NCBI RefSeq assembly: GCF_902364355.1
Contig: NZ_CABJDK010000005.1
Span: 84,239 to 148,238 of the forward strand
Reading direction: 5' to 3'
Length of the DNA stretch: 64,000 nucleotides
Source: Collinsella aerofaciens
GTDB lineage: Bacteria; Actinomycetota; Coriobacteriia; Coriobacteriales; Coriobacteriaceae
Shown here: positions 19,270 through 46,206 of the stretch, in pieces
How the letters are laid out: every line of letters begins with the position of its first letter
Numbering within the stretch: position 1 is the first letter of the stretch
Position numbers and translations under genes: made by a program
Notes under the pieces: generated by a model
What the model was told of the DNA's origin: nothing
Seen by the model: the letters and a program-made list of their open reading frames with translations, nothing else
Databases searched by the model: none

Positions 19270-20670
19270 ATGGACAAGATCAAGCTCGGCTTTGTGCCCA
19301 CGCGCCGCAGTATCTTTAGCGCGCCGGACGCGATCAAGTATCGCGGTCTGACGGCTGATCGCCTGCGCGAGATCGGCGTCGAGATTGTGGATATCGACGA
19401 CATCAACGACGAGGGCCTGCTGTTCGACGACAGCCATATCGCGCCTATCGTCGAGGAGTTCCGCGCCGAGGGCGTCGACGGCATCATGCTCTGCCACGCC
19501 AACTTTGGTACCGAGTATGTCTGCGCCCGCCTTGCCCGCGAGCTCGGCTTGCCCGTGCTGCTGTGGGGTCCGCGCGACGAGCGCCCCGAGCCCGACGGCA
19601 CCCGTCTGCGCGATAGCCAGTGCGGCCTGTTCGCCACCGGCAAGGTCCTGCGTCGCTTCCAGGTTCCCTTCACCTACATGACCAACTGCCGTCTGACCGA
19701 TCCCGAGTTCGAGCGCGGTGTCTGGGACTTTTTGGCCGTGTGCAACGTGGTCAAGACTTTCAAGCACACCCGCATCCTGCAGATGGCCACCCGTCCGTTC
19801 GATTTCTGGTCGACCATGTGCAACGAGGGCGAGCTGCTCGAGAAGTTCAACATCCAGCTTTCGCCCATCCCCATGACCGAGCTTGTCCAGGCCGTGCGCG
19901 ACGCCCAGGCTGACGAGCAGGCCATGGCAACCATGCTCGCCCACATTGGTGACAGCTTTGAGATCTGCATCCCCGAGGACAAGGTTCCTGCGGTCGCAGG
20001 ACTCGCCATTGCCATGAAGCGCCTGGTCGAGAAGTACGGCTGCAACGCCGGCGCCATCCAGTGCTGGAACGCCCTGCAGGACGAGTTGGGCATTATGCCC
20101 TGCGCCGCCAACGCAATCCTCAACGAGATGGGCATCCCCATCGTCTGCGAGACCGACATCCATGGCGCTATCACCGCGCTGATGGTCGAGGCCGCCGACC
20201 TGGGCCGTCACCGCGGCATGTTCGCCGACTGGACCGTGCGTCATCCCGATAACGAGAACGGCGAGCTGCTGCAGCACTGCGGCCCCTGGCCCTGCAGCTG
20301 CGCGGCCGTCAAGCCCAAGCTCACCTATCCGCTGGCCTTCGATCACCCCGGCGCGCTGACGGCCGAGGCCAAGCACGGCGACCTCACCCTTGCCCGCTTT
20401 GACGGCGACAACGGCGAGTACTCGCTGCTGCTGGGCAACGCCCGCGGCATCGACGGCCCGGCCGGCATGGGCACCTACCTGTGGGTCGAGGTCGACAACC
20501 TCAAGCGCCTCGAGGCCAAGATCGTCGAGGGTCCCTACATCCACCATTGCGTCGCCATTCACGCCAACGTGGTGCCGGTGCTCTACGAGGCGTGCAAGTA
20601 CATCGGCATTGTCCCCGACCTGTACGACCCCATCGAAGAAGACGTCAAAGCTTACCTGCGAGGAGAGTAG
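19270..20670 (+). CDS. L-fucose/L-arabinose isomerase-like protein
   Basis: 466 residues of the FucI/AraA-like isomerase family (COG2407 type): KLGFVPTRRSIF at the start, DGIMLCHANFGTE, and NEMGIPIVCETDIHGAITALM, whose Glu and Asp match the Mn-binding ketol-isomerase site. HHCVAIHANV near the C-terminus supplies further His. It probably interconverts an aldose and ketose in the cytoplasm. It opens an operon with a two-subunit transketolase and an FGGY kinase and no transporter. That gene set matches the apiose/apulose route, in which an isomerase makes apulose, but the isomerase described for that route need not be of this family. Strong GGGGAGGA ribosome binding site. Confidence 0.8.
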   Translation: MDKIKLGFVPTRRSIFSAPDAIKYRGLTADRLREIGVEIVDIDDINDEGLLFDDSHIAPIVEEFRAEGVDGIMLCHANFGTEYVCARLARELGLPVLLWGPRDERPEPDGTRLRDSQCGLFATGKVLRRFQVPFTYMTNCRLTDPEFERGVWDFLAVCNVVKTFKHTRILQMATRPFDFWSTMCNEGELLEKFNIQLSPIPMTELVQAVRDAQADEQAMATMLAHIGDSFEICIPEDKVPAVAGLAIAMKRLVEKYGCNAGAIQCWNALQDELGIMPCAANAILNEMGIPIVCETDIHGAITALMVEAADLGRHRGMFADWTVRHPDNENGELLQHCGPWPCSCAAVKPKLTYPLAFDHPGALTAEAKHGDLTLARFDGDNGEYSLLLGNARGIDGPAGMGTYLWVEVDNLKRLEAKIVEGPYIHHCVAIHANVVPVLYEACKYIGIVPDLYDPIEEDVKAYLRGE

Positions 20671-20672
20671 AA

Positions 20673-21509
20673 ATGGCAACTATCGAAGAGCTTGAGTCCC
20701 TGCGTTGGGACCTTCGACGCGATTGCGTCGATATCATCATGGCTGGCGCCGGCGGGCACATCGGCGGCGACATGTCGGTCATCGATGCGCTGATGACCCT
20801 CTACGCCAACCACCTCAACATTTCGCCCGAGACCGTCGACAATCCCAACCGCGATCGCTTCGTGCTCTCCAAGGGCCACGCCATGGAGGCCTACTACGCG
20901 GTGCTCTGCCACGAGGGCTATCTTGACCTTGATGACGTCAAGGCCCGCTTCTCCAAGTTCGGCAGCCCCTACATCGGCCACCCCAACAACAAGCTCAAGG
21001 GCATCGAGATGAACTCGGGCTCGTTGGGTCACGGTCTGCCCGTGGCTGTGGGCATGGCACTTGCCGGCAAGATGGATGGCCGCGGCTACCGCGTCTACAC
21101 CATCATGGGCGACGGCGAGCTTGCCGAGGGCTCGGTCTGGGAGGGCGCCATGAGCGGCGGCAATTACCAGCTCGATAACCTGTGCGCGCTCGTGGACCGC
21201 AACCGCCTGCAGATCAGCGGCAGCACCGAGGACGTCATGAAGCAGGATTCGCAGGAGGAGCGCTGGGCCGCCTTCGGTTGGAACGTGCTGTCCATTCCGG
21301 GCAACGACGTCCAGGCCATCGATGCCGCGCTGACGCTGGCCGCCGAGACCAAGGGTAAGCCCACGGTCATCATCCTCAACACAGTGAAGGGCTACGGCTC
21401 GCCGGTTATGGAGGACAAGGCCGCCTGGCATCATCACCTGCCCAACGATGAGGAATATGCCCAGATCATCGCCGATTTCGCTGCCCATAAGGAGGCCATC
21501 AATGGCTAA
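20673..21509 (+). CDS. Transketolase, N-terminal (thiamine diphosphate) subunit
   Basis: 278 residues, equal to the N-terminal half of transketolase. The diphosphate/Mg motif MGDGELAEGSVWEGA continues to a conserved Asn-containing stretch (VDRNRLQI), and early histidines (GGHIGGD, SKGHAMEAYY, GHPNN, GSLGHGL) line the substrate channel. Split transketolases of this kind occur in sugar-specific pathways, including D-apulose-4-phosphate transketolase (AptA/AptB) and sulfoquinovose transketolase. The ATG at 20673 follows AGGAGAG, right after the isomerase stop. The next subunit starts inside this gene (8-base overlap). Confidence 0.9.
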   Translation: MATIEELESLRWDLRRDCVDIIMAGAGGHIGGDMSVIDALMTLYANHLNISPETVDNPNRDRFVLSKGHAMEAYYAVLCHEGYLDLDDVKARFSKFGSPYIGHPNNKLKGIEMNSGSLGHGLPVAVGMALAGKMDGRGYRVYTIMGDGELAEGSVWEGAMSGGNYQLDNLCALVDRNRLQISGSTEDVMKQDSQEERWAAFGWNVLSIPGNDVQAIDAALTLAAETKGKPTVIILNTVKGYGSPVMEDKAAWHHHLPNDEEYAQIIADFAAHKEAING

Positions 21510-22443
21510 CAAGATCGCCAACCGAAAGGCTATCTGCGACACGCTGCTCGAGGCCGCCGCAACCGATAAAGACATCGTCGTCCTGTGCTCCGACTCCCGC
21601 GGCTCTGCATCGCTCACGCCGTTCTTTGACCAGTATCCCCAGCAGTCCGTTGAGGTCGGCATTGCCGAGCAGGACCTGGTGAGCATCGCCGCCGGCATGG
21701 CCTCGTGCGGCAAGAAGGCCTGGGCCGCCTCGCCGGCGTCCTTTGTGACCACGCGCTCGTATGAGCAGTGCAAGGTCGACGTTTCGTACTCCAACACCAA
21801 CGTCAAGCTCATCGGCATCTCGGGCGGCGTGTCCTACGGCGCCTTAGGCATGAGCCATCACTCCGCGCAGGATATCGCCGCCATGAGCGCGATTCCCAAC
21901 ATGCGCGTGTATCTGCCGAGCGATCGCTTCCAGACCGCCGAGCTCGTGCGTGCCCTGGTCGCCGACAACAAGCCGGCCTACATCCGCGTGGGCCGCAACC
22001 CGGTGGAGGACGTGTACACTGAGGACGAGTGCCCGTTCCAGATGGATCGCGCCACCTGGGTGCGCCGCGGCACCGATGTGACGATTGTCGCCACCGGTGA
22101 GATGGTCCGCCATGCCGTGGACGCCGCCGATCTGCTGGCCGAGCAGGGCATCTCGGCAACGGTGCTCGATATGTACTGCGTCAAGCCGCTCGATGCCGAG
22201 GCCGTGATCGAGGCCGCCGGTGCCACGCGCGCCGTCGTGACCGTCGAGGAGCACAGCCCCTTCGGTGGCCTGGGTTCCATGGTCGCGCAGGTCGTGGGCG
22301 AGCATTGCCCGCGTCCGGTCAAGTGCCTGAGCCTGCCCGATGCGCCGGTCATCACCGGCACGAGTCCCGAGGTCTTTGCGCACTACGGCCTGACGGGTGC
22401 CGGAATCGCGCAGACCGTCGCCGAGTTCTTGCCCGCAGAGTAA
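21502..22443 (+). CDS. Transketolase, C-terminal (pyrimidine-binding) subunit
   Basis: 313 residues, equal to the central and C-terminal thirds of transketolase. The catalytic glutamate lies in VEVGIAEQDLVSIAAGMA. PAYIRVGRNP and TVEEHSPFGGLGS mark the second and third domains. It overlaps the N-terminal subunit gene by 8 bases, so equimolar translation is likely. The pair should transfer a two-carbon unit. If the substrate is apulose-4-phosphate, the products would be xylulose-5-phosphate and dihydroxyacetone phosphate. Confidence 0.9.
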   Translation: MANKIANRKAICDTLLEAAATDKDIVVLCSDSRGSASLTPFFDQYPQQSVEVGIAEQDLVSIAAGMASCGKKAWAASPASFVTTRSYEQCKVDVSYSNTNVKLIGISGGVSYGALGMSHHSAQDIAAMSAIPNMRVYLPSDRFQTAELVRALVADNKPAYIRVGRNPVEDVYTEDECPFQMDRATWVRRGTDVTIVATGEMVRHAVDAADLLAEQGISATVLDMYCVKPLDAEAVIEAAGATRAVVTVEEHSPFGGLGSMVAQVVGEHCPRPVKCLSLPDAPVITGTSPEVFAHYGLTGAGIAQTVAEFLPAE

Positions 22444-22447
22444 CTGG

Positions 22448-22480
22448 AATGTGACAAAGGGACCGCCCCTTTGTCACATT
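22448..22480. repeat. 13-bp perfect inverted repeat (AATGTGACAAAGG type)
   Basis: AATGTGACAAAGG, loop GACCGCC, CCTTTGTCACATT. It sits inside the operon between transketolase and kinase. It could slow or partly terminate transcription, or be a REP-type element. Confidence 0.65.
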
Positions 22481-22499
22481 CGTTTTGAAAGGGGTGGCC

Positions 22500-23990
22500 A
22501 TGGGCCGCTACATCATCGGAATCGATCAATCCACGCAGGGCACCAAGGCGCTGCTGGTGGACGAGGGCGGCCATTTGATTCATCGTGCCGATCGCCCGCA
22601 TCGCCAGATTGTCAACGAGGCCGGCTGGGTGAGCCATGATCCGACCGAGATTGCCGCCAACGTGCTGGCCGTGGCGCGTGCCGTGGTGGAGGAGACCGGG
22701 GTCGATCCAGCAGATATCGCCGGCATTGGCATCTCCAACCAGCGCGAGACCACCGTTGCCTGGAGTCGCACGACGGGCGAGCCGCTGTGCGACGCCGTGG
22801 TGTGGCAGTGCGCCCGCGCCCGCGAGCTGTGCGACGAGCTTGCTGCGCGCGAAGGCGTGGCCGAGCTGGTGCGTGACACGACGGGTCTGGTGCTCTCGCC
22901 CTACTATCCGGCGGGCAAGATGGCTTGGATCCTCGCGAACGTTCCGGCGGCTGCCGAGGCTGCGGCGGCAGGCGAGCTGTGTCTGGGCACCATCGACGCC
23001 TGGGTGGTCTGGACGCTCACGGGCGGTGCGGAGTTCCGCTGCGACTGGTCCAATGCCAGCCGCACGCAGCTCTTCGACCTGCGCCGTGGCTGTTGGAGCG
23101 AGCCGGTGTGCGAGGCTTTTGGCATCGATCCGGCCTGCCTGCCGCAGGTGACCGACTCCGACGGTCTCTTTGGCACAACGGACCTGGGCGGCTTTTTGCC
23201 GGCGCCCGTGCCCATTCACGGCGTGCTGGGCGACAGCCATGCGGCCCTGTTTGCGCAGGGTTGCCACAGCCGCGGCATGGCCAAAGCGACCTATGGCACC
23301 GGCAGCTCGGTCATGATGAATGTCGGCAACGAGTTTGTCGCCAGCTCGCACGGGCTTTCGAGCTCGCTTGCGTGGCGTATGCATGGCGTGACCGAGTATG
23401 TGCTCGAGGGCAACGTGAGCTACGCCGGCGCCGTCAAGACCTGGCTGCGCGACGATCTGGAGCTCATCAACAACCCCGAGGAGGTCACCGACCTGTGCTA
23501 CGCCGCCAATCCGGCGAGCCGCGTCTACTTTGTGCCGGCGTTTACCGGTCTGGGTGCGCCGCACTGGGCGAGCGATGCCGAGGGTTGCGTCTTTGGCATG
23601 ACGCGCACCACGGGCCGCGCGGAGTTCGTGAAGGCCGCCGATGAGTCGATCGCCTATCAGATCTTCGACGTCATCGATGCGATGGTCGAGGATTCGGGCG
23701 CGGCGCTGGCCGAGCTTCGTGTTGACGGCGGTCCCACGCGCGACGCGTACCTGATGCAGTTTGAGAGCGACCTGGTCGGCTCGCCCATCCGCATTGCGAG
23801 CAACGACGAGATGAGCGGTCTGGGCGCGGCTTGGGCCTGCGGCATTGCGCTGGGCATGTACGCGCGCGATGTCGTCGACGTCTATGGCGCCCGCGGCATC
23901 GTGGAGCCTGCCATGCCTGCCGACGAGCGAGCCAAAAAGATCGCCGGCTGGCGTCACGCCGTCGACGCGACCATCGCTTACACTGCCTAG
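22500..23990 (+). CDS. FGGY family carbohydrate kinase (candidate D-apulose kinase)
   Basis: 496 residues. Typical FGGY kinase features are the phosphate motif GIDQSTQGTKALLVD at the N-terminus, GISNQRETTVAW, the second phosphate motif ATYGTGSSVMMNVG and the adenosine motif RVDGGPTRDAYLMQ. It is closer by eye to glycerol kinase and xylulokinase than to rhamnulokinase. In this operon it probably phosphorylates the ketose made by the upstream isomerase, giving the substrate for the split transketolase. The start at 22500 follows AAAGGGGTGG. Substrate not proven; xylulose or glycerol are alternatives. Confidence 0.85.
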   Translation: MGRYIIGIDQSTQGTKALLVDEGGHLIHRADRPHRQIVNEAGWVSHDPTEIAANVLAVARAVVEETGVDPADIAGIGISNQRETTVAWSRTTGEPLCDAVVWQCARARELCDELAAREGVAELVRDTTGLVLSPYYPAGKMAWILANVPAAAEAAAAGELCLGTIDAWVVWTLTGGAEFRCDWSNASRTQLFDLRRGCWSEPVCEAFGIDPACLPQVTDSDGLFGTTDLGGFLPAPVPIHGVLGDSHAALFAQGCHSRGMAKATYGTGSSVMMNVGNEFVASSHGLSSSLAWRMHGVTEYVLEGNVSYAGAVKTWLRDDLELINNPEEVTDLCYAANPASRVYFVPAFTGLGAPHWASDAEGCVFGMTRTTGRAEFVKAADESIAYQIFDVIDAMVEDSGAALAELRVDGGPTRDAYLMQFESDLVGSPIRIASNDEMSGLGAAWACGIALGMYARDVVDVYGARGIVEPAMPADERAKKIAGWRHAVDATIAYTA

Positions 23991-24104: not shown

Positions 24105-24125
24105 TGACTACCGAGAGGAACTGCC

Positions 24126-24614: not shown

Positions 24615-24657
24615 GGCCGCCCTCTGCCTCCAAACCGTTCACACGGAGATATCGACC

Positions 24658-24711
24658 GTTTAACTGTTTAGAAGTGTTTATTCGAGGTCATTAGCACTAG
24701 CTCGCTTAAAC
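24658..24711 (+). promoter_or_regulatory. GTTTA/TAAAC half-site cluster upstream of the BglG leader
   Basis: GTTTA occurs at 24658, 24666 and 24676 and TTAAAC at 24706, like the LacI-type sites elsewhere, but here mostly as direct repeats. A regulatory role is possible, not shown. Confidence 0.35.
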
Positions 24712-24718
24712 TAGTCCT

Positions 24719-24802
24719 CAGAGTGATATTCAGGCAAGGCTCCTGAAGCAGCATCTGTCGACATTGATTGTCGGATTCTGCTTCGGGAGCCTTGTTCTGT
24801 TT
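24719..24802 (+). promoter_or_regulatory. BglG-type antiterminator target and leader terminator
   Basis: A 17-bp stem with one mismatch joins 24735-24751 (CAAGGCTCC...) to 24778-24794 (...GGAGCCTTG) and is followed by TTCTGTTT, a terminator. The sequence AGAGTGATATTCAGGCAAGG overlaps the left arm and resembles a ribonucleic antiterminator target of LicT/BglG proteins. The adjacent antiterminator gene therefore probably controls its own operon. Confidence 0.75.
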
Positions 24803-24814
24803 AGGGGGGGACAC

Positions 24815-25654
24815 ATGGAAATTGTTAAACGAATTAATACCAGCGCTGTCCTCTGCGTCGATGGAAATGGCAGACAGTTGGTTGCATTCGGCCGTGGTCT
24901 GGGGTTTAAGAATGTCGGAGACGAGGTCCCTCTTTCGGAGATTCAACGAACGTTTTATAACGTTAGCTCTCGCTACATCGCTCTCGTTGACGAGGTCCCC
25001 GACGAGCTTCTCGAGCTTACCTCGGATGTTATTGATATGTCGACAGGTTTGCTGTCTTATGAGGTGAGCCCTAATTTGCCGTTTATCCTTGCGGACCATA
25101 TCGCGTATGCGGTTAAGCGTAAAGAGCAAAATATCGTTGTCCGCATGCCTTTATCGTTTGATGTCCGCCAACAATATCCCGTCGAATTTAGAATCGGCGA
25201 GTATGCACTTAAGATAATCAGGAAACGTCTTAACGTTAGGCTTCCAGCTCATGAGGCAGTTGGAATTGCCATGGCGTTTATCAATAACATGGCCGATTCG
25301 GACTCATGCGAAGTAGTTAAAGAGTTTAGCGCGGATATCTACGATCGTGTTCTGGAGGAGTCAACCGTTGCTGTTGAAAATCGGCTTGGCATTCAAGTTG
25401 ATCGGGAAGGTTTCGATTACGCAAGGTTCGCAACCCATCTTCAGTACTTATTCAATAGGTTGAACTCTGGCGAAAGCATCGTGAGCGACAACCGCAAGAT
25501 GTACCTCTCGCTCAAAAAAGAATATCCGGTGGCATCAATGTGCGCCGATGATATTGCTTCTGTTCTCAGCCGACTGACGGGGCGGGAACTTATAGACGAA
25601 GAAAGACTCTACCTCATGATGCACATCAATCGAATTGCATCGAAAACAAGGTAA
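24815..25654 (+). CDS. BglG/LicT family PTS-regulated transcriptional antiterminator
   Basis: 279 residues. An N-terminal RNA-binding CAT domain (MEIVKRINTSAVLCVDGNG, residues 1-55) is followed by two PRD domains. Their phosphorylatable histidines are visible in ILADHIAYAV, LPAHEAVGIAM, ATHLQYLFN and LMMHINRIAS. In the absence of sugar EIIB phosphorylates PRD1 and blocks the protein; with sugar it opens the leader terminator just upstream. The start is MEIVKR behind GGGGGG; the earlier ATG at 24764 lies within the terminator. Codon use is clearly AT-richer than in neighbouring genes. Confidence 0.92.
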   Translation: MEIVKRINTSAVLCVDGNGRQLVAFGRGLGFKNVGDEVPLSEIQRTFYNVSSRYIALVDEVPDELLELTSDVIDMSTGLLSYEVSPNLPFILADHIAYAVKRKEQNIVVRMPLSFDVRQQYPVEFRIGEYALKIIRKRLNVRLPAHEAVGIAMAFINNMADSDSCEVVKEFSADIYDRVLEESTVAVENRLGIQVDREGFDYARFATHLQYLFNRLNSGESIVSDNRKMYLSLKKEYPVASMCADDIASVLSRLTGRELIDEERLYLMMHINRIASKTR

Positions 25655-25722
25655 TTAGTTGGCAAAGGCGCGCGCTTTGCTGATGGTTACATATAAAACT
25701 CAACATGGGAGAAATGGTATTT

Positions 25723-27093
25723 ATGGCAGATACAACCAAGCTCGCTGCCGAGATTCTCGAGATGGTGGGCGGCGCAGACAACGTTACATTTGTAGCTCAC
25801 TGCATGACTCGTTTAAGGTTCAACCTTAAGGACGAAAGCATCGTAGACGATGCAAAAGTCAAGGCGATTGATGGCGTGATCGACATTCGCCATTCCGCGG
25901 GGCAATATCAGGCGATTGTGGGACCTAAGGTCGATAAGGTCTATGAAATCGTTGCCAAGGAAACCGGGATTGATGCCGGAGATTCCGAGGCAAGCGAAGG
26001 AGAGACTAAGGGCTTTCTGGGAAAGCTAATGAAGCTCATCAGCGGCATCATGATGCCCGTTCTTCCTGCCTTGATCGCATGCGGAATGATAAACGCCGTC
26101 CTTAGTATTCTGACGACGGCGGGTGCTGTTTCCGCCGAGAGCGGAATATACACTCTGCTGTACGGCATGGGAAATGCCTGCATGTATTTTCTGCCCGTTC
26201 TTGTCGGATCATCTGCTGCTCAGTTCTTTGGAACCGATCGATATATCGGTGCGGTACTCGGTGCAATCCTGATTTATCCGACTTTCGTTGCTGCGGCCGG
26301 AGCGGGCGATGCGCTGGATTTGCTCGGCATGAAGTTCACAATGGTGAGCTATTCCTCCACGGTGTTTCCTGCTATCGTGGCGGCTTGGTTCGCATCCGTT
26401 CTTAATAAGTGGCTGCGGGCGGTTCTTCCCGATGTTGTGGCATTTGCGCTCGTCCCGTTCCTGACGGTTGCTGTTGCCGCCCCCGTCTCGCTCCTTGTGA
26501 TCGGCCCCGTTATTCAGCAGGCGAGCTCTTTGCTTGCGACTGCAGTGCTGGCGGTCTATCAGTTCAGCCCCGTCCTTTGCGGCGTTATTCTCGGGCCGAT
26601 ATTCGGTCTCGTTATGATCCCCCTTGGACTCCATTGGGCCCTGATCGTGCTTTCCATCAACAATATTATGACCGTCGGCTCCGATCCTATCCTTGGACTT
26701 CTCTGCTGCAGCATGGGTGTTGTCGGCGCTTGTTTGGCGTTTGCCCTCCGCTCGAAGGACCCGAGTGAAAAGAGTCTTGGGTTCAGCTGTGCCATTACGG
26801 GCTTTTTCGGGATTACGGAACCGGCGCTGTACGGCATCATCTTGGAGCACAAGAAGATCATTATCGCTTCCATGGTCGCCGGAGCAATCAGTGCTGTTAT
26901 CCCGGCGATTTTCAACACCTGTACGTTCGTTATGACGTCGAGCGGCATTTTTAGCTTCCCCGGTTATATGGATCCTTCTGGTGATATGAGCAGCCTCATC
27001 GGCGCAATTCTTTGCAATGTCGTCGGTTTAATTCTTAACTTCGTTCTCGTTTACATCCTGTATCGCCCTGATGAAGAGGCGGTAGTGGAGTAG
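25723..27093 (+). CDS. PTS beta-glucoside-type EIIBC component
   Basis: 456 residues: an EIIB domain with phosphorylation-site Cys in AHCMTRLRF (about residue 28), then an EIIC domain with about ten helices and the family motif GFFGITEPALYGI. No EIIA domain is fused, so phosphate must come from a separate EIIA such as the EIIA(Glc)-like protein at 63.4 kb. Beta-glucosides or related aryl-glycosides are likely substrates, shown by family and by the BglG partner. Start MADTTKL at 25723 is preferred because GGGAG upstream is better spaced than for the ATG at 25705. Confidence 0.9.
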   Translation: MADTTKLAAEILEMVGGADNVTFVAHCMTRLRFNLKDESIVDDAKVKAIDGVIDIRHSAGQYQAIVGPKVDKVYEIVAKETGIDAGDSEASEGETKGFLGKLMKLISGIMMPVLPALIACGMINAVLSILTTAGAVSAESGIYTLLYGMGNACMYFLPVLVGSSAAQFFGTDRYIGAVLGAILIYPTFVAAAGAGDALDLLGMKFTMVSYSSTVFPAIVAAWFASVLNKWLRAVLPDVVAFALVPFLTVAVAAPVSLLVIGPVIQQASSLLATAVLAVYQFSPVLCGVILGPIFGLVMIPLGLHWALIVLSINNIMTVGSDPILGLLCCSMGVVGACLAFALRSKDPSEKSLGFSCAITGFFGITEPALYGIILEHKKIIIASMVAGAISAVIPAIFNTCTFVMTSSGIFSFPGYMDPSGDMSSLIGAILCNVVGLILNFVLVYILYRPDEEAVVE

Positions 27094-27198
27094 ACAATTA
27101 TTCGGGATGTAAGCTGCCGAAAACCCCGCGGCAGATTGCATGTGGTGGGCTTGCCGTTGATTCACGCGAGCCCACCCTCATTTTTGGAGTGACTAGCT

Positions 27199-28179
27199 AT
27201 GACAATTACTGCCGATATGACGTTTGGCGAAATCGCGCTCCTTCCTGAGTTCGCTGGCTTTGGCGAGCACCTTATGCTTTGCCGGCCTTCAACTTGGGAG
27301 CGCATGTGGAATAAACCCATTGTGTCTCATATGAATTCTGATGCTAATCCATATGAAACTGCTCGCGTTTTGCGTGGATTGAATCGAATTGTCGAGCTCG
27401 TGGATGACGGGAGGCAGGTTGCCTACGATATTTGGGATGAAGCCGACTGCATCCGTGATCCGACTCGGCGCAATACGAAACTGTTCTTCTTTCCCGGGAG
27501 ACCTAGGGCTCCCTTTATCATTGCGGTTTCGGGCGGAGGTTATCAGAGCGTTTGTCATCAAGTGGAAGGCTTTCCCGTTGCCCCCGAGCTCAACGATGCG
27601 GGCTATAACGTGTTCGTGCTGTCATACAGGGTGAGGGTCGAGCCTTTGATGCCGCGCCCAATCGACGATTTAAATCGAGCCGTCCGTTTTGTCCTGGAGA
27701 ATTCAGCGAAATTTAATGTCGCAAAAAGTTATGCAGTTATCGGCTTTTCTGCTGGTGCGCATTTAACTGCCGAGTGGGGGACGGACAACAAGGGATTTGC
27801 GTCCTACGGATGCGAGGCGCCAAAAGCCTTGGCCCTGTGTTATGCACCGATTGATCTTCATGGCTTTGAGAACGCATCAGACAATAGATTTCTTGATTCG
27901 GTGTGCGGCGGGGCTGGTCGCGACTCGCTCGATGATTTCTGTATTAATCAGCATGTGTGGGAGCAGTATCCTCCGACATATCTTTGGCAATGCGCTGACG
28001 ATGATATTGTATCGCCCGACAATTATGAAAAGATGGTCGATGCTCTGGATGCAGCTGGAGTACACCATGAGGGAGTCATGTATTCAGAAGGGGGGCACGC
28101 ATTGATGAAGCCCCATGCGCCGGAGACCGACTACTGGTGTATGAGCGTTATTGAGTTTCTTAAAGATTATCTCGACTAG
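27199..28179 (+). CDS. Alpha/beta hydrolase (esterase/lipase) in the PTS operon
   Basis: 326 residues, no signal peptide. An oxyanion-hole type SGGGYQ replaces the usual HGGG. The nucleophile lies in GFSAGAH (about residue 184), the acid in CADDDIVSPDN and the His in SEGGHALM. Location 105 bases after the PTS gene suggests it removes an acyl group from an imported phosphorylated glycoside, for example an acetylated or aromatic ester. The gene shares the AT-rich composition of the two genes before it, so the three probably arrived together. Confidence 0.82.
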   Translation: MTITADMTFGEIALLPEFAGFGEHLMLCRPSTWERMWNKPIVSHMNSDANPYETARVLRGLNRIVELVDDGRQVAYDIWDEADCIRDPTRRNTKLFFFPGRPRAPFIIAVSGGGYQSVCHQVEGFPVAPELNDAGYNVFVLSYRVRVEPLMPRPIDDLNRAVRFVLENSAKFNVAKSYAVIGFSAGAHLTAEWGTDNKGFASYGCEAPKALALCYAPIDLHGFENASDNRFLDSVCGGAGRDSLDDFCINQHVWEQYPPTYLWQCADDDIVSPDNYEKMVDALDAAGVHHEGVMYSEGGHALMKPHAPETDYWCMSVIEFLKDYLD

Positions 28180-28302
28180 GAAACTGCATGTCGCTTTTTG
28201 AGCGGGTGATTTCGTCATGCAATGTTTTCGGTATTGATCGTGGTCGTGGATGAATGATGTTCTAGAATGTTCGTACTGTCACATAAACGAACAGGAGCGA
28301 AC

Positions 28303-28947: not shown

Positions 28948-28956
28948 GGGCTTCCT

Positions 28957-29101
28957 GTTTGTCTCGATCTGTAACATCTAGCGGGCTAAATCGTCTCTAC
29001 CTGTTACAGATCGAGACAAACTGCAGGGACAGACCGAACAATCTCAATCTGTAACGCCAAGCCCGGTTTTGGCGGTCTACCTGTTACAGATCGAGACAAA
29101 C
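28957..29101. repeat. Tandem inverted repeats of the GTTACAGATCGAGACAAAC type
   Basis: Copy 1 has perfect 19-base arms at 28957-28975 and 29003-29021. Copy 2 has an identical right arm at 29083-29101 and a degenerate left arm ending at 29055 (ATCTCAATCTGTAAC). Each loop holds its own short stem (TAGCGGGCTA; GCCAAGCCCGGTTTTGGC). Confidence 0.8.
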
Positions 29102-29110
29102 CGGGCCCAA

Positions 29111-29149
29111 GCCGCCACAAAGGTGCCTGTCCCCTTTGTGGTGGTTTGG
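29111..29149. repeat. CCACCACAAAGG/CCTTTGTGGTGG hairpin element
   Basis: GCCGCCACAAAGG, loop with TGCCTGTCC, CCTTTGTGGTGGTTT. Other copies lie at 48.09, 51.81 (half) and 54.73 kb. This copy is in the orientation CAAAGGTGCCTGTCCCCTTTG. Confidence 0.75.
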
Positions 29150-29178
29150 GGCGGCGGTATCAGAAAGTGTCAGACGGG

Positions 29179-29294: not shown

Positions 29295-30728
<1,434 letters not shown>

Positions 30729-39653: not shown

Positions 39654-41165
39654 CTATGCCACGGTCACGGCGATCTGGGCGTAGCGGGTGCAGGGGCGCT
39701 CGGCGCGCGTCTGCACGGTAAGCGTGAGTACGAAGCGGTCACCGGGCTGCGCGTCGGCGGGCACGATGAAAGCGGTGTCCACCGTGCATTCTTGCCACAT
39801 CGACAGATCCTGGACGCCTGCATAGCTCGATGGGTCTACGGCCACATCCCAATGTGCATCGAAGCCCTTGTCGTCGGGGTCGACGATGGTTGCCGCAAGG
39901 GCGACGCGCTCGCCGGCTGCGGCGCTGCGGTCGGCCGTGACCTCGACAACATGTGCCGGATGCGAGCAGATGGCCGGATCATGGGCGCACCATTGCGCGC
40001 GGGCGGCAAAGTTTTCCTGATAGGCACGCAGATAGGGATTGAGATTGTCGTCTGCGGGCGTGCCGATGGAGGCAAAACCGGCGGGCGCGCTCGCATCGGG
40101 GTGTCCATCAAGAAACATGCGGCCCAGCAGCGTATCGAAGTCGCGGTCGTCGATGCCGCGCAGGCCAAACGGCAGCAGTGGAATATAGGTCATGCTGTCG
40201 CCTTCGGCCATAAAGTCGCCGCGCTCAAACTGCATCGCGGTCATGCCTTCCAGGCCCCAATCCAGGCGGGCATGCTTGCCAAACTGAAAGCGCTCAGGCT
40301 CGTTTTCGTAGACCTTACCATCGCCATAGAGCATATAGCGTGCCATGAGGGGGCCGTTGCCCTGCGTGAGATTCTGCTCGGGCCAGGGAGCCTTAAACAG
40401 CGGCAGCGTATCGGGCTGAGCTGTTTTGGCGTCGAAATAGTTGCCATACATATAGGGCGTACGCCAAAAGATGAGCTCGGGAAAGAGCTCGCGCCCATGG
40501 TCGAGCCACGAGTTGTCCTGTCCCACGCCATCGGCAACGCCCATCACGCGCACCTTCTGATAGACCTGCTGCTGCACGGCGGGCCACTCGGGCGTGGCGC
40601 GATAGCGCTCGGCAATACTCATGAGGGCGCGAACGATCGTATTCATACCACCCCAGCTGAGCAACCATAACGTACGCGGATCATCATCCAGAATCGCCTG
40701 CGCAATTACGCGAGACCCCTCAGTTTCCTCAGTCACATCACCCTCAAAGGCAACATTTCCCACAAAGGTGCGCTCGATCATCTGGGCGGGCGTGGGAAAC
40801 GGCGGCTCACCGGCAGCGGCCGCATTTGCCTGCAACTGCGGCCAAGCCTGGGCATATTCATTACTCCAGAGACTCTCAATCCAATGCTCGGGAAACGGCC
40901 GATACTCACGAAGCTCGCCGGCTAGCGGATCGGGCTCATGAGGCACAACAGCCCACTCATAAGAGCGCCGCCCTTTGGTCCGCCAATGCGAATTCACCTC
41001 GCCGAGCGTATGAACCCCATCCCCAAGAAAGTGATACTGCGAAGCCGTATACACCACAGCCTGAACATCAAGCAAGTTGAGATACAGAGCCAAATGAACA
41101 AGCGAGTTCATATCGTCGACTTCCATATCGGTAGTAACAATCACCCGAGTCAACTTCTGGGACAT
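39654..41165 (-). CDS. DUF1593 (nucleoside-hydrolase-like) protein
   Basis: 503 residues, no signal peptide. The N-terminus VIVTTDMEVDDMNSLVHLALY has the Asp-rich start of the DUF1593 family, which is related in fold to nucleoside hydrolases. LLSWGGMNTIVRAL and the GVADGVGQDNSWLDH region follow, and the C-terminal 90 residues form an immunoglobulin-like beta domain. Family members lie in plant-polysaccharide loci; the reaction is not established. The start at 41165 is chosen because GGAGCTGTT precedes it; ATG at 41189 would add eight residues. The large palindrome at 41294 separates it from the next gene. Confidence 0.8.
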   Translation of the reverse strand: MSQKLTRVIVTTDMEVDDMNSLVHLALYLNLLDVQAVVYTASQYHFLGDGVHTLGEVNSHWRTKGRRSYEWAVVPHEPDPLAGELREYRPFPEHWIESLWSNEYAQAWPQLQANAAAAGEPPFPTPAQMIERTFVGNVAFEGDVTEETEGSRVIAQAILDDDPRTLWLLSWGGMNTIVRALMSIAERYRATPEWPAVQQQVYQKVRVMGVADGVGQDNSWLDHGRELFPELIFWRTPYMYGNYFDAKTAQPDTLPLFKAPWPEQNLTQGNGPLMARYMLYGDGKVYENEPERFQFGKHARLDWGLEGMTAMQFERGDFMAEGDSMTYIPLLPFGLRGIDDRDFDTLLGRMFLDGHPDASAPAGFASIGTPADDNLNPYLRAYQENFAARAQWCAHDPAICSHPAHVVEVTADRSAAAGERVALAATIVDPDDKGFDAHWDVAVDPSSYAGVQDLSMWQECTVDTAFIVPADAQPGDRFVLTLTVQTRAERPCTRYAQIAVTVA

Positions 41166-41293
41166 AGGAACAGCTCCAATCAAAATCAATTCAGCCAGTT
41201 ACGCGCAAGGCAAGACGGGACCCATGCCCCCATCGCCACCGACCCGGCGGCCCGCTAGAAGCGGCCGGCCAGGGTCACGGCAACGTCAACGCA

Positions 41294-41416
41294 GCGGGGA
41301 CCGGGGTTTAGTCTTGCAAACATTCCGCAGGGGGCATGGGCAGGCGCAGCGCGAAGCGCAAAGCGCCAGCCCATGCATGCCCGAGGACGTTTGCAAGACT
41401 AAACCCCGGTCCCCGC
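41294..41416. repeat. Giant palindrome with perfect 28-bp arms
   Basis: Arms 41294-41321 and 41389-41416 are fully complementary (left arm starts GCGGGGACCGGGGTTTAG). The 67-base loop has inner pairs CATGGGC/GCCCATG and GCGC/GCGC, so the whole can fold into one long cruciform. It lies between two genes that both read leftward. No coding capacity. Confidence 0.85.
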
Positions 41417-41427
41417 GATGGGAGGGC

Positions 41428-42765
41428 TTAGCGGTCGACCCTGGCCGACCACTCCCAGCAGCCCACCGGCTCGCCGTCGATGAGTACGTTGCCCCCGTCG
41501 AAGTCTTGATAACACAGGTCGTTGAATTGGTGGATCCACACGCCGTGGTTGAACGTCTTCTTGGCCGAGCCGTCGGCCTCGCGATACACGCCGGTCAGGT
41601 CCTCGACATGGCTAAAGTAGGTGAGATGCACGTTGGCGCCGGCACCGCGCAGGCGCGCGAACAGCGGCAGCACGGTCTGTTGCGGTGACACAAGCTCGTC
41701 GCCCTTGGAGTGCGTAAACCACAGCGGCGTCTTGGCGAGCGCGGCCACGTCCTCGTCCGTGGCGTTGTACCACGGGGCGCAGCAGGGAAGGCCCGCGGCG
41801 AAGAAATCGGGGTAGTCGGCGCACAGGCGCAGGGTCATAAAGCCGCCGTTGGAAAGACCGGCGACCACGATGCGGTCGGTGTCGATGCGGTCGGCATGCT
41901 CGGCGACAAACTCGTCGATAAGCGCCTTGAGCACGGAGGAGTAGATGCTCTGGTTGGAGCGACCGAGTTGTTCGACGCCGTTGTCCATCCAAAACGTGGG
42001 CGACTGCGGCACGAGCACCCAGGCAAAGCCGCCAAAGTAGCGCTGGATCTGCGCCTGGCTAATGGCCGTCACGCGGTTGCCGATATAGGCGCGCGTAGCG
42101 CCTTCGCCCTGCGTGGCGCCCTTGCCCTCGCCGGCGCCGTGCAGATACACCACGAGCGGTGCCTTTTGGGGCACGGCCGTGGCCTCGGGCGCAAAGGGGT
42201 TGAAGCATGCCGAGTCCTCGGCCTTAAAGCTGGGCTCAAAGAAGCCGTATTCGAGCGCGATACCGTCGACGGCGGTCTTTTGCGTGTCGTTGCTCCAGCC
42301 TTTGAGCGCAGGGCAGATATCGCCACGGCAGGTGTCGAAGACCAGGCCGCAGGTGGGATCGTCGCCGTCGTTGCCGGGAAGAGCCGCGAGCTGCGTGATG
42401 TGCAACTGGTCATCGAGCATGCGCGAGCCCATGACGCCGCCTTCGATCTTTTTGGTCAGGCGCTGCTCGGCGACCTCGAGCGCCACATGGGTGCCCACGG
42501 CGAGCTTACGTCCGTTCTCGTCGCACGGATATGCGGCGAGAATGTCGATGTAACCCACGGAGGGCGCGGCATGGTCGGCGCCGCGTTCCTTGCGCATCAG
42601 AACATCGCCCGAGCGCTCGTGACGCTCTACATATATATGGAAGGTGTTCGCGTCGATGTCGTTGGCGCGCACGGTGCAGGGCAGGTCGAGTACGACCTTG
42701 CTGATCCAGGGGCCAAAGTCGCCCAAGGTGGTGACGGTTGCGTAGGTACACAATTTGAGTTCCAT
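41428..42765 (-). CDS. Prolyl-oligopeptidase-like esterase
   Basis: 445 residues, cytoplasmic by sequence. The N-terminal 190 residues form a beta-rich accessory domain. The hydrolase domain has LVVYLHGAGEG, the nucleophile elbow AGLSNGGFMTLRL (about residue 303), an acid in HSKGDELV and a late His in KKTFNHGVWIHQF. It resembles PHB-depolymerase-like or acyl-esterase proteins of glycan loci. A perfect operator-like palindrome lies 49 bases upstream, suggesting coregulation with the PTS/apiosidase genes. The start MELKLC is preceded by GGGAGGCAGC. Confidence 0.8.
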   Translation of the reverse strand: MELKLCTYATVTTLGDFGPWISKVVLDLPCTVRANDIDANTFHIYVERHERSGDVLMRKERGADHAAPSVGYIDILAAYPCDENGRKLAVGTHVALEVAEQRLTKKIEGGVMGSRMLDDQLHITQLAALPGNDGDDPTCGLVFDTCRGDICPALKGWSNDTQKTAVDGIALEYGFFEPSFKAEDSACFNPFAPEATAVPQKAPLVVYLHGAGEGKGATQGEGATRAYIGNRVTAISQAQIQRYFGGFAWVLVPQSPTFWMDNGVEQLGRSNQSIYSSVLKALIDEFVAEHADRIDTDRIVVAGLSNGGFMTLRLCADYPDFFAAGLPCCAPWYNATDEDVAALAKTPLWFTHSKGDELVSPQQTVLPLFARLRGAGANVHLTYFSHVEDLTGVYREADGSAKKTFNHGVWIHQFNDLCYQDFDGGNVLIDGEPVGCWEWSARVDR

Positions 42766-42813
42766 GAGCTGCCTCCCTTGCGCCGCGAATGCCTGGCATC
42801 TGCGGCAATACAA

Positions 42814-42829
42814 ACTAAACATGTTTAGT
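42814..42829. promoter_or_regulatory. Perfect 16-bp LacI-type operator palindrome
   Basis: ACTAAACATGTTTAGT is identical to its reverse complement. It lies upstream of the esterase gene (minus) and, further away, the PTS gene (plus). Confidence 0.7.
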
Positions 42830-42894
42830 GTAATCTAGAATTGAAGAATAACCAGATGAACTCGGTAAACGGCAAAATTGAACACGTCGTGAAC

Positions 42895-42914
42895 TACTAA
42901 ACGTATGTTTACTA
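42895..42914. promoter_or_regulatory. Second operator-like palindrome
   Basis: TACTAAACGTATGTTTACTA has the same half-sites as the palindrome 80 bases away, but with a four-base centre. Confidence 0.6.
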
Positions 42915-43106
42915 GCTTCTAGCAGGGATTCTGTTGATGAGTTAACAGATCAGTGAGGTGTTCATCAAAATAAAATCCCACGTAAATGGCTATATATCAA
43001 TAGAGGGTCAAAGAGACCATCTCCCGCCATTCAAATACGTTCACCCCCGATTTCCTACCGTTCACCGGACTGTAGACGGCAAAATTGCCATAAATTCGGC
43101 GCTCCG

Positions 43107-43149
43107 TGTAAACTAAAGCCCGTAAACGTTCAGTAAACACCTTGTTTAC
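43107..43149 (+). promoter_or_regulatory. Operator-like sites before the PTS EIIBC gene
   Basis: GTGTAAACTAAAG, CCGTAAACG and GTAAAC-ACCTT-GTTTAC (43133-43149) lie 107-150 bases before the EIIBC start. The rest of the 42830-43106 interval is AT-rich without a supported gene. Confidence 0.6.
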
Positions 43150-43206
43150 AAAAGCGTATCCAAGGGTCCGGCAACCGTAAGGGGTTATAGTCGCCGGGCC
43201 AAAGGC

Positions 43207-43232
43207 GTGCCTAAGCCCAAAGGGGCTGGCAC
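43207..43232 (+). promoter_or_regulatory. Leader hairpin before the PTS EIIBC gene
   Basis: GTGCC-AGCCC and GGGCT-GGCAC pair around AAAG with a small bulge, 23 bases before the ATG. No T-run follows, so it is not a plain terminator. Confidence 0.4.
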
Positions 43233-43255
43233 ACGAAGATATGGGGAGGGGTCCC

Positions 43256-44683
43256 ATGGCAGTAGATAACAAGCAGATTGCCACCGATGTCCTCGAGCTC
43301 GTGGGCGGTGCGGAGAATGTTTCCGTTGCCACCAACTGCATGACGCGCCTGCGTCTGACGCTCAAGGATAACAGCAAGGCCGACGTGGAGAAGATCAAGA
43401 AGGTCAAGGGTGTTCTGGGTTGCCAGTTTGCCGGCAGCCAGCTCCAGGTCATCATCGGCCAGAACGTGCCCAAGGTGCTCGCCGAGTTCGTCGCCATCTC
43501 CGGTGTCAAGCAGGGTGAGGCCGTCAACGAGAACCTCGATGCTCCCAAGGAGAAGTTCGAGCTCAAGAACCTGCCCAATATCATCCTCGACTATCTGTCG
43601 GGCTCCATGACCCAGCTCATCCCGCTGCTCATGGCCGGCGGTCTGTTCCGTACCATCGCGGCCGTCCTCGGCCCCACCATGCTCGGTGTGCTCTCGGCCG
43701 ACGACCCGACCTATACGTTCCTCTACACCACGCTGTACGAGGCCACGTTCACCTTTATCCCCATCTACCTGGGTTATGCCGCGGCTAAGAAGCTCGGCGC
43801 CAGCCCGGTGCTCGGCATGCTGCTCGGTGGCGCCCTCATGGCTCCTTCCGTGGTGAGCGTCGCCACCCAGGAGGGCGGCGGCATCATCTCCGTCTACGGC
43901 ATCCAGATCGCTGCTGCCAACTATCAGCAGTCCGTCCTGCCGATCATCCTTTCGGTGCCTGTCCTCTACTTCGTCGAGAAGTTCTTTAAGAAGGTCATGC
44001 CCGACGTGCTCTCCACGGTCTTCACGCCGTTCTGCACCATGATCGTCACGATCCCCATTGCCTTCATCGTCCTCGCTCCGATCGGCAACGAGATCGGTAC
44101 GCTGATCGCCAACGCCCTCTTCGGCCTTGCTGACCTTGGCGGCATCGGCATCCTGATCGTCATGGCCGTCCTCGGCGCCTTCTGGCAGCTCTTCGTGGTC
44201 TGCGGCATGCACATGCCCGTCATCCTGCTCGCCCAGGTTCAGATCATCGCTGCCGGTTACGATCCCTTCGTCTTCGTTTCCACCAACTGCGCTATGGCCG
44301 CTGTCTGGGGCTGCGCCTTCGGTGCCTTCCTCAAGATGAAGAACCCCGACGAGAAGTCTCTCGCCATCGGTTACGTCATCTCCGCCATCGCCGGCGGCGT
44401 CACCGAGCCCGCGCTCTTCGGCATCCTCATGCGCTTCCGTCGCACCATGTTTGGCATGTTCATCGGCGGTGCCATCGGCGCTGTGTTCTCCGGCCTCATG
44501 GGGGTTACCTACTACCTCGCAGGCGGTGCCTCCAACTTCCTGGTCTTCACCAACTACCTGCAGGGTGGCCAGATGAACACCGTCTGGGCTATCGTTGGTA
44601 TGGCAATCTCCTTTGTCATCGCCGCTGCCGTCGTCTTTGTCTCCGGCTTCTCCAAGGAGGAGCTCGCCGAGATGGAGGCCTAA
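43256..44683 (+). CDS. PTS EIIBC component, beta-glucoside family
   Basis: 475 residues. EIIB with Cys in TNCMTRLRL (about residue 28), then EIIC with about ten helices and the GGVTEPALFGI motif. As with the other PTS in this window, EIIA is not fused. The next gene encodes a cytoplasmic DUF4038 glycosidase, so a phosphorylated glycoside, possibly an apiosylglucoside, would be delivered to it. LacI-type operator sites precede it. Start MAVDNK behind GGGGAGGGG; ATG at 43241 rejected as it lies in the ribosome binding site. Confidence 0.92.
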   Translation: MAVDNKQIATDVLELVGGAENVSVATNCMTRLRLTLKDNSKADVEKIKKVKGVLGCQFAGSQLQVIIGQNVPKVLAEFVAISGVKQGEAVNENLDAPKEKFELKNLPNIILDYLSGSMTQLIPLLMAGGLFRTIAAVLGPTMLGVLSADDPTYTFLYTTLYEATFTFIPIYLGYAAAKKLGASPVLGMLLGGALMAPSVVSVATQEGGGIISVYGIQIAAANYQQSVLPIILSVPVLYFVEKFFKKVMPDVLSTVFTPFCTMIVTIPIAFIVLAPIGNEIGTLIANALFGLADLGGIGILIVMAVLGAFWQLFVVCGMHMPVILLAQVQIIAAGYDPFVFVSTNCAMAAVWGCAFGAFLKMKNPDEKSLAIGYVISAIAGGVTEPALFGILMRFRRTMFGMFIGGAIGAVFSGLMGVTYYLAGGASNFLVFTNYLQGGQMNTVWAIVGMAISFVIAAAVVFVSGFSKEELAEMEA

Positions 44684-44724
44684 GGCCAAACCGTTCGGTC
44701 GCATAAGACCTCACCTACACGACA

Positions 44725-44761
44725 GGGCCCCGTCAGGCGTAAGCCCGGCGGGGCCCTTCTT
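44725..44761 (+). terminator. Terminator after the PTS EIIBC gene
   Basis: GGGCCCCG pairs with CGGGGCCC around TCAGGCGTAAGCCCGG, where GGC/GCC extends the stem. TTCTTG follows, so some read-through into the next gene is possible. Confidence 0.7.
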
Positions 44762-44804
44762 GCAAGGTAGACTGATGGAGGCGGGTGAGATTCGCCCGCG
44801 AGGG

Positions 44805-44865
44805 TTTGCCAAGCGCCGGGGGCTTTCGCGCGGGGTTATCGCGAAAGCCCCCGGCGCTTGGCAAA
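44805..44865 (+). repeat. Perfect 26-bp hairpin just before the DUF4038 gene
   Basis: Arms 44805-44830 (starting TTTGCCAAGCGCC) and 44840-44865 are fully complementary with a nine-base loop CGGGGTTAT. It ends 27 bases before the ATG. It could block or time translation, or be a REP-like insertion. Confidence 0.8.
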
Positions 44866-44892
44866 TCCTTTATCAAACGAAAGGACATGCAG

Positions 44893-46206
44893 ATGAGTTT
44901 GGGAAAGCTGACCGCCAACGGTCGCCAGGACGGCTTTTTGTGCGAGGGCAAACCGTTCTTCTGGTTTGCCGATACGTGCTGGAGCGCATTTACGAGCATC
45001 GCCGAGAACGACTGGGATTACTACCTGACCCGCCGTGCCGAGCAGGGCATGAACGTGCTGCAGATCAACACGTTGCCGCAGTGGGATCGCTGCTGTCCCG
45101 ACCTGGGCATTTGGCCCTATGCCAGCGAGGACGGCGTGCACTTTGATTGGTCCTGCCCCAACCAGGCGTATTGGGATCGTGCCGCCGCCATGTGCCGCGC
45201 GGCCGTCGAGCACGGCATTCGTCCGGCGCTCGTGCTCATGTGGTGCAACTACGTGCCCGGTACCTGGGGTGCCAAGATCGCCGAGCGTTGCGGTGCCGAG
45301 ATTATGCCGCGTGAGGAGGTTCGCGCCCACGTTGCCCGCGTCGTCGAGAACCTGGGCGAGTTCGACCCCGTCTACGTGGTGGCGGGCGATACCGACTTTG
45401 CCGGCGACGAGGCGATCGCCTATTACGAGGACGCCCTCGACGAGGTCGTCAAGCGCGCGCCCGAGGCACTGCGCACCATGCATATCAACCGCGGTAACCG
45501 CACCATTCCGGCGCAGTATCTGGACCGTCTGGACTTTTATATGTTCCAGCCCGGCCACAACTACGAGGGCCAGCCCGAGGCATGGCGTCTGCCGCAGGAC
45601 TTTATCGCCAACTATCCCAAAAAGCCGATGGTCAACTCCGAGCCTTGCTACGAGCAGATGGGTGCGTCGCGCAACGTCTACTGGCGTTTTACCGCGCAGG
45701 ATTGCCGCGCGAGCGTATGGTCGTCGATTCTTGCCGGCGCCAGTGCCGGCGTGACCTATGGCGCACACGGCGTGTGGAACTGGCAAACATCGCGCAGCCA
45801 GGGTTCGGTCCTGGGCGAGGGCTTTGACATGCCCTTCCGCTGGCAAGAGTGCCTGCAGTTTGCGGGTGTGTGGGACTTTGGCGCGATCGAGCACGTGCTT
45901 GCCGCCCTAGGCGCTACGGCTGCCGACGATGCACTTGCCGTGGTTCCGGCGCAGGAGCTCCTCGACGACGCGCGCGAGTCCATCCGTGTGGCGCGCGTTG
46001 GCGATCGCATCGTCGCGTACCTGCCGCGTACCACGGCGCTCAAGTTTAAGCTCGACGGCGCGCGTGGCTGGACGGCGACGGTCCTCGACATGGAGGACAA
46101 GCGCATCGCAAAGCTGCCCGTCCGTGACAACGGTGACGGCACCGTGCGCGTGGCGCAGCATCCCTTTGAGCACGACGCGCTGGTGATCCTGGCCCCCGGG
46201 CGCTAA
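44893..46206 (+). CDS. DUF4038 glycoside hydrolase (GH140 apiosidase-like)
   Basis: 437 residues, no signal peptide, so intracellular. DUF4038 TIM-barrel features are GKPFFWFADTCWSAF near the N-terminus, VLQINTLPQWD, ALVLMWCNYVPGTWG, YVVAGDTDF and PMVNSEPCYEQMG, followed by a short C-terminal beta domain (DRIVAYLPRTTALKF). GH140, whose characterised member removes apiose from rhamnogalacturonan II, belongs to this fold. Other DUF4038 enzymes with other activities exist, so apiosidase is likely but unproven. Start MSLGKL is chosen because GAAAGGA is eight bases upstream; MQMSLG at 44887 is the alternative. Confidence 0.78.
   Translation: MSLGKLTANGRQDGFLCEGKPFFWFADTCWSAFTSIAENDWDYYLTRRAEQGMNVLQINTLPQWDRCCPDLGIWPYASEDGVHFDWSCPNQAYWDRAAAMCRAAVEHGIRPALVLMWCNYVPGTWGAKIAERCGAEIMPREEVRAHVARVVENLGEFDPVYVVAGDTDFAGDEAIAYYEDALDEVVKRAPEALRTMHINRGNRTIPAQYLDRLDFYMFQPGHNYEGQPEAWRLPQDFIANYPKKPMVNSEPCYEQMGASRNVYWRFTAQDCRASVWSSILAGASAGVTYGAHGVWNWQTSRSQGSVLGEGFDMPFRWQECLQFAGVWDFGAIEHVLAALGATAADDALAVVPAQELLDDARESIRVARVGDRIVAYLPRTTALKFKLDGARGWTATVLDMEDKRIAKLPVRDNGDGTVRVAQHPFEHDALVILAPGR

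Follow-up and report, generated by a model that had tools for sequence, protein, structure and literature searches.

The 64,000-nucleotide stretch of Collinsella aerofaciens DNA analysed here (the window) likely encodes a regulon for the degradation of apiosides fed by a phosphotransferase system (PTS), an assignment that rests on sequence comparison. Its core consists of two distant gene groups: an operon at 19270–23990 for an isomerase, a two-subunit transketolase and an FGGY kinase, and a pair of genes at 43256–46206 for a PTS EIIBC protein and a DUF4038/GH140-family protein. A first-pass annotation had described both groups, and the list of open reading frames (ORFs) and Pfam confirmed their gene order and coordinates. 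Its main proposals, namely PTS import of an apioside, an intracellular apiosidase and degradation of apiose by the operon, are backed by sequence evidence from relatives. To that account we add the LacI gene, the genes at 39654–42765, the block of BglG, PTS, esterase and GH1 genes at 24764–30728 and the common half-sites; the presence of a 6-phospho-beta-glucosidase gene in the window corrects it. The core features are:

18002–19012, + strand, LacI-family regulator, candidate repressor of the regulon (PF00356 and PF13377)
19013–19269, isomerase operon promoter region, seven STAAAC/GTTTAS half-sites at 19057–19243
19270–20670, + strand, L-fucose/L-arabinose isomerase family protein that may isomerise D-apiose to apulose
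20673–21509, + strand, transketolase N-terminal subunit, AptA-like (PF00456; tree)
21502–22443, + strand, transketolase C-terminal subunit, AptB-like (PF02779 and PF02780; tree)
22500–23990, + strand, FGGY kinase, glycerol kinase/apulose kinase group, putative apulose kinase (PF00370 and PF02782)
29298–30728, + strand, GH1 6-phospho-beta-glucosidase (NF007158, 884 bits, cut-off 639)
39654–41189, − strand, Sde182 nucleoside-hydrolase-like protein (PF07632), same cassette as EIIBC/GH140
41428–42765, − strand, EstA/PHB-depolymerase-like esterase, same cassette as EIIBC/GH140
42766–43255, divergent promoter region, nine half-sites including the perfect palindrome ACTAAACATGTTTAGT at 42814–42829
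43256–44683, + strand, beta-glucoside/sucrose-type PTS EIIBC lacking IIA, putative importer of apiosyl glucoside (PF02378 and PF00367, both above cut-off)
44887–46206, + strand, DUF4038/GH140-family gene, candidate cytoplasmic apiosidase (PF13204 'Apiosidase')

Gene neighbourhoods and genome-level co-occurrence

Related loci were taken as the best 80 of 547 confirmed isomerase matches (at least 73% identity) in one scan of named genomes, and genes were called and clustered in these loci, five further Collinsella loci and the window. The genes for the isomerase and the transketolase N- and C-terminal subunits are consecutive in 74 of the 80 loci. The kinase gene follows directly in 58 of these and further downstream in 9, and none was called downstream in 7, of which L031 and L075 have a kinase upstream; many contigs end early. 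In 54 loci a member of the LacI cluster precedes the isomerase by no more than two genes. An RbsB/RbsA-type ATP-binding cassette (ABC) importer is encoded in 18 loci, most also with DUF2291, RbsC, RbsD and RbsK, and a PF13204-family gene was found in 26 (L002, L009 and L018 confirmed by Pfam) with a profile built from the window protein, one relative's protein and their matches. The importer and the GH140-family gene occur together in none of the 80 loci (one-sided p = 2.7e-4). Among 22 genomes picked by hand from those behind the 80 loci, PF13204 was found anywhere in the genome in 0 of 8 with an ABC locus versus 13 of 14 others (p = 2.8e-5). This exclusivity fits two modes of supply, with either free sugar entering through the ABC importer or a glycoside being imported and then cleaved. 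It agrees with the first-pass explanation that GH140/PTS supply would account for the operon's lack of a transporter gene, a lack borne out by the window ORFs.

The system had been described as dispersed, which holds for the window, where its parts lie apart, and not for relatives, where they are adjacent to each other. In L033, from a Eubacteriales metagenome-assembled genome (MAG), genes for PTS IIABC, GH140, GH1, the isomerase, the transketolase subunits and the kinase stand on one strand, with the GH140 ORF complete (429 amino acids) and beginning 10 bases past the PTS gene. L004, from a Coriobacteriia MAG, likewise carries on one strand the isomerase, transketolase, kinase, EIIBC, GH140, esterase and ribokinase genes. 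The operon of L005 and L058 is followed by a cassette like that at 39654–46206 in the window (Sde182-like, esterase, EIIBC and GH140), with the EIIBC gene inverted within it in L058, while the GH140, GH1 and PTS genes of L071 are divergent from the operon. Immediately 5' of the isomerase in L002 and L003, both from C. aerofaciens, are genes for an esterase, a DUF5060-PF13204 protein and lactose-family PTS IIC, IIB and IIA. The orthologue of the window EIIBC adjoins GH140 in L004, L005 and L058, orthologues of the window esterase at 41428–42765 are present in L004, L005, L057 and L058, and the Sde182-like gene adjoins the operon in L005, L057 and L058.

Co-occurrence extends to whole genomes. 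The isomerase is present in 12 of 43 Collinsella genomes (once as a fragment), and PF13204 in 11 of these 12 versus none of the 31 others (Fisher 2e-9), a count that omits weak isomerase matches of 22–23% in G003, G013 and G021, of which G021 alone has no other copy. Both genes lie on one contig in 10 of the 12, 2.7–31 kb apart. In the family of G051, a Mediterraneibacter and hence taken as Lachnospiraceae, 348 genomes were compared, and PF13204 was counted above its cut-off in 38 of the 59 with an isomerase orthologue (at least 59% identity, or fragments at 62% or above) versus 20 of the 289 that have none (odds ratio 24, p = 3e-21); the co-occurrence p-values overstate independence because the genomes are related. 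Within this family, 16 isomerase-PF13204 pairs are at most 10 kb apart, compared with about 0.38 expected for 3-Mb genomes.

Proposed cytoplasmic cleavage and shared regulation

The DUF4038 protein scores 245.4 bits against PF13204 (cut-off 26.5) and aligns over about 280–310 residues with PDB entries 3kzs/5msy, 4qfu and 8t9w (54–77 bits). Its conserved Glu252 corresponds to the Glu in DGEPIYE (the EPxYE motif), and its Asp region GDTDFAGD (167–174) aligns differently among the matches; these Glu and Asp carboxylates presumably have catalytic roles. As had been claimed, the protein has no recognisable signal peptide, its N-terminus not being strongly hydrophobic; an alternative longer in-frame start lies at 44785. 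Judged by the highest 13-residue Kyte-Doolittle mean in the first 50 residues (−0.22 to 1.57; window protein 0.82), no strongly hydrophobic N-terminus was found in the window protein and the 26 family ORFs in the loci, among which those whose called start falls within the gene, as in L029 and L033, are no test of a signal peptide. The full L033 protein, which begins MENVIMGRLKIGNNKSGF, has no signal there either. A GH140 protein without a signal, encoded beside PTS and 6-phospho-beta-glucosidase genes, points to cleavage after import.

Genes for nucleoside-hydrolase-fold proteins (IU_nuc_hydro or Sde182-like) were scored near the operon in 14 of the 80 loci, with L043 and L049 doubtful; the others, besides the window, are L005, L013, L021, L024, L029, L036, L038, L042, L044, L057, L058 and L064. 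These proteins could be apioside furanosidases. A more speculative joint proposal, rather doubtful as a whole, is that the GH140 branch is an apiosidase dependent on the 6-phospho-apiosyl-glucoside made by the PTS, while the operon-side nucleoside-hydrolase-fold proteins (39654–41189 here) form a second, metal-dependent type that cleaves apiofuranosides and uses the cis-diol of apiose as nucleoside hydrolases use that of ribose. Ribokinase and nucleoside hydrolase genes also stand immediately 5' of the LacI gene (15831–17798), and ribokinase recurs at relatives' operons. GH78 alpha-L-rhamnosidase-like and PF13204-family genes are both found at the operons of L007, L009, L010, L025, L042 and L061, suggesting glycosides that bear rhamnose and apiose.

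STAAAC/GTTTAS half-sites number 21 across the 1.4 kb of the five gaps that flank genes of the candidate apiose island, compared with 6 across the 9.8 kb of the 32 remaining gaps, and Markov shuffles gave a mean of 1.9 and a maximum of 8 in 3000. By gap, three half-sites precede the LacI gene (17799–18001), seven the isomerase gene and two the Sde182-like gene, nine lie between the esterase and EIIBC genes, and the GH140 gap has none. Ten related loci hold 46 in 6.4 kb of island gaps versus 7 in 18.2 kb of others, with none in L033, one in L071, and L009/L010 and L057/L058 being near-duplicates. The exact 16-mer pattern alone is not significant (12 of 100 shuffles reach it), whereas the half-site density is, and scanning for palindromes ahead of the isomerase gene yielded weak sites only. 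The concentration of half-sites upstream of both distant parts suggests one regulon that ties 18–19 kb to 41–43 kb, and the LacI protein (18002) probably represses both parts through them.

Other features of the window are:

24126, LuxS (orthologue identified in L001)
24764–25654, BglG-type antiterminator, 5' of the second EIIBC
25705–27093, + strand, second EIIBC, beta-glucoside type
27199–28179, + strand, BD-FAE-type alpha/beta hydrolase (esterase; PF20434)

Gene calling was by codon usage, which misses the block at 24764–28179 and places some starts too late. The second EIIBC may serve the same or another glucoside. A second GH1-like ORF, a candidate from its N-terminal sequence, lies near the window end (61775–63229).

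Operon enzymes, opposing evidence and alternatives

Pairwise identity could not place the kinase or the transketolase, and trees and pocket residues were therefore used. The phylogeny proposed in the first-pass annotation gave a divided outcome: the transketolase clusters with AptAB of E. coli, Klebsiella and Sodalis and with Shinella, away from the housekeeping enzymes (98/98; the latter being Collinsella enzymes and E. coli TktA), while the kinase falls outside the AplK clade. The kinase is nonetheless GlpK/AplK-like and not XylB-like, and the grouping with xylulose enzymes that had been named as a refuting outcome was not seen. As in AplK, the D-apiose cluster kinase of PMC13001218, it has Ser at the position of E. 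coli GlpK Phe270 and Lys at that of Arg17 (8 of 8 operon kinases shown). Its motif is GDS in place of GDQ (5 of 5 shown). It scores below the GlpK equivalog cut-off of TIGR01311 (533.6 versus 590.35 bits). The window comes from a Collinsella close to C. aerofaciens, and 60% of sampled words are shared with G001, the nearest of the genomes compared. Its isomerase is 97–98% identical to those of C. aerofaciens loci and belongs over its full length to the same FucI/AraA family as the isomerase of the Klebsiella/Sodalis clusters; its fold matches arabinose isomerases, and its match to PF02952 is weak (21.9 bits, below the cut-off of 29.3).

Isomerase paralogues (58%, 28% and 42% identity; L132 7244–8719, L133 7762–13471 and L134 8483–9940) accompany other kinases, a single-chain transketolase-like protein or other enzymes, contexts indicating that the family probably covers several sugars. 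L130 (7491–10467), from the G051 family, encodes an isomerase with 46% identity to the one in the Klebsiella apiose cluster, and its neighbours are, by eye, a DUF5060-PF13204-like gene, an FGGY kinase gene and an aldolase-like gene; no two-subunit transketolase was recognised within 17 kb, and this gene set is perhaps another apiose route. L129 (Klebsiella pneumoniae CP110761, 11.6 kb, linear) holds an apiose-type cluster, including an isomerase absent from E. coli SE15, and one nuclease/transposase-like gene; this small linear plasmid record may be an assembly fragment.

Several observations weigh against a PTS-fed apioside regulon. The kinase is no closer to AplK than to GlpK (39% and 40% identity), retains GlpK Tyr135 where AplK has Leu, and in the tree stands beside GlpK with AplK outside (98%), a placement made unreliable by the very long XylB outgroup branch. 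The outgroup branch of the transketolase tree is long as well, and the program cautions that long branches are joined. The isomerase forms a clade distinct from that of the Klebsiella/Sodalis clusters (25% identity) and weakly resembles the sulfoquinovose isomerase SftI (NF048012, 89.6 bits, missing the equivalog cut-off of 700). The half-site motif was picked from the isomerase and EIIBC gaps themselves, which makes its frequency in the LacI and Sde182 gaps and in related loci the less biased test. A single half-site (24615–24763) accompanies the block of GH1 and second PTS genes, which may serve other glucosides, and two terminator-like hairpins were seen by eye between the EIIBC and GH140 genes. 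Finally, 21 of the 59 isomerase-bearing genomes of the G051 family have no PF13204; the two of these inspected, G048 and G053, both carry the ABC importer.

The alternative that survives best, though improbable, is that the operon degrades apiose and the PTS at 43256 carries an unrelated glucoside, with apiosides entering otherwise or as free apiose. The specificity of EIIBC is unreadable from models, the sugar-specific cut-offs being missed, free sugar seemingly enters by the ABC importer at 18 of 80 loci, and 19 of the 26 GH140-family loci have no PTS of either kind in the stretch covered, some having other membrane transporters by eye. This separation is at odds with the adjacency of PTS and GH140 genes in L004, L005, L033, L058 and L071, which span Coriobacteriia and Clostridia, with the second, lactose-family PTS adjacent in L002 and L003, and with the half-sites common to the operon and PTS promoters.

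We give a lower probability to degradation of another aldose, such as ribose or a different branched or deoxy pentose, freed by a PF13204 enzyme that is not an apiosidase. Ribose is normally used via ribokinase, without a dedicated isomerase and transketolase, and the transketolase here groups with AptAB. The PF13204 family is broad, many ABC-type loci include ribokinase and RbsD genes, and the structure 4ry0, which is related to the binding protein, bears the title of a ribose transporter protein. However, the transporter genes of relatives resemble those of the E. coli SE15 apiose cluster more than they do K-12 Rbs (binding protein, median 42.5% versus 27.9% to RbsB; permease, 50.6% versus 36.7%). 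For the binding protein of one relative, the top sequence match is PDB 5ibq (362 bits); that structure was reportedly solved with apiose, which is not counted as evidence here. Foldseek and VIA have 4ry0, not 5ibq, among the matches listed. The name of 5ibq, 'probable ribose ABC transporter', also appears in PMC8112048.

Marginally less probable again is a reversed order, in which apulose reaches the transketolase unphosphorylated and the dihydroxyacetone formed from it is then the substrate of the glycerol-kinase-like enzyme. Apulose minus two carbons is indeed dihydroxyacetone, and the kinase lies above the cut-off of the broader GlpK subfamily model NF000756 (538 versus 498 bits) and keeps Tyr135, but the Ser that it shares with AplK at Phe270 argues against this order. 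A sulfoquinovose pathway of the transketolase type, to which the SftI match would point, is very improbable given the distance from the SftI cut-off and the GH140 association of the isomerase, and such pathways are not known to need an FGGY kinase. Sulfoquinovose transketolase pathways do exist (PMC11659671).

Proposed route and comparison with known systems

Apiose is present in pectin rhamnogalacturonan II and many dietary plant glycosides such as apiin. In the PTS-fed route that we favour, the EIIBC at 43256, whose predicted substrate comes from its neighbour genes, would import an apiosyl beta-glucoside and phosphorylate its glucose at O6, so that apiose should occupy another position such as O2, as in apiin. 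The cytoplasmic GH140 enzyme would remove D-apiose, and a 6-phospho-beta-glucosidase such as that at 29298 would free glucose 6-phosphate. The isomerase would then convert D-apiose to D-apulose, the kinase would form apulose 4-phosphate, and the two-subunit transketolase would transfer two carbons to glyceraldehyde 3-phosphate, yielding dihydroxyacetone phosphate and xylulose 5-phosphate. The esterases might act on acylated glycosides, for example malonylapiin, a compound named in a reference title in PMC10602602, but an acyl group at O6 of the glucose would prevent the PTS from phosphorylating that position.

If this route is correct, gut Actinobacteria and Clostridia import such glycosides intact, and both apiose and aglycone are released intracellularly. 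No sugar would pass to neighbours, aglycone release would be tied to a specific, recognisable gene set, and apioside-deglycosylating strains would be predictable from genomes. A widespread family now labelled 'L-fucose/L-arabinose isomerase family protein' would gain a function.

The pathway itself is known elsewhere; what looks new is its supply by a PTS, with GH140 releasing apiose in the cytoplasm, and the divergent clade of the isomerase. PMC13001218 describes the apiose cluster of E. coli SE15, with Escherichia carriers growing on D-apiose, and apiose degradation shown for gut Bacteroides and Clostridia. In open-licence PubMed Central (PMC), apiose with 'phosphotransferase system' returned plant work only, apiose with Collinsella gave nothing on apiose use by title and abstract start, apiosidase with GH140 gave nothing on PTS-fed cytoplasmic release, and 'apulose' gave no paper.

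The closest known system is D-apiose degradation I (AplK, AptA/AptB) of E. coli ST131/ST14, Klebsiella, Sodalis and Pectobacterium, which shares with the window the two-subunit transketolase and GlpK-like FGGY kinase, in Sodalis and Klebsiella also a FucI/AraA-family isomerase, and with some relatives of the window operon a DUF2291/RbsB-type ABC importer. The window differs from it in its isomerase (25% identical), in a LacI protein that replaces the sugar-binding regulator, and in having a PTS and GH140 instead of the DUF2291 ABC importer. The window GH140 protein resembles the GH140 apiosidases and DUF4038 structures in its PF13204 match above cut-off and the conserved EPxYE Glu, but it has no recognisable signal peptide and stands with PTS and 6-phospho-beta-glucosidase genes. 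With the PTS and 6-phospho-beta-glucosidase (bgl/cellobiose) systems the window has in common a beta-glucoside-group EIIBC and a GH1 protein above the NF007158 cut-off, whereas here these are linked to an enzyme of a furanosidase family and to a pentose pathway.

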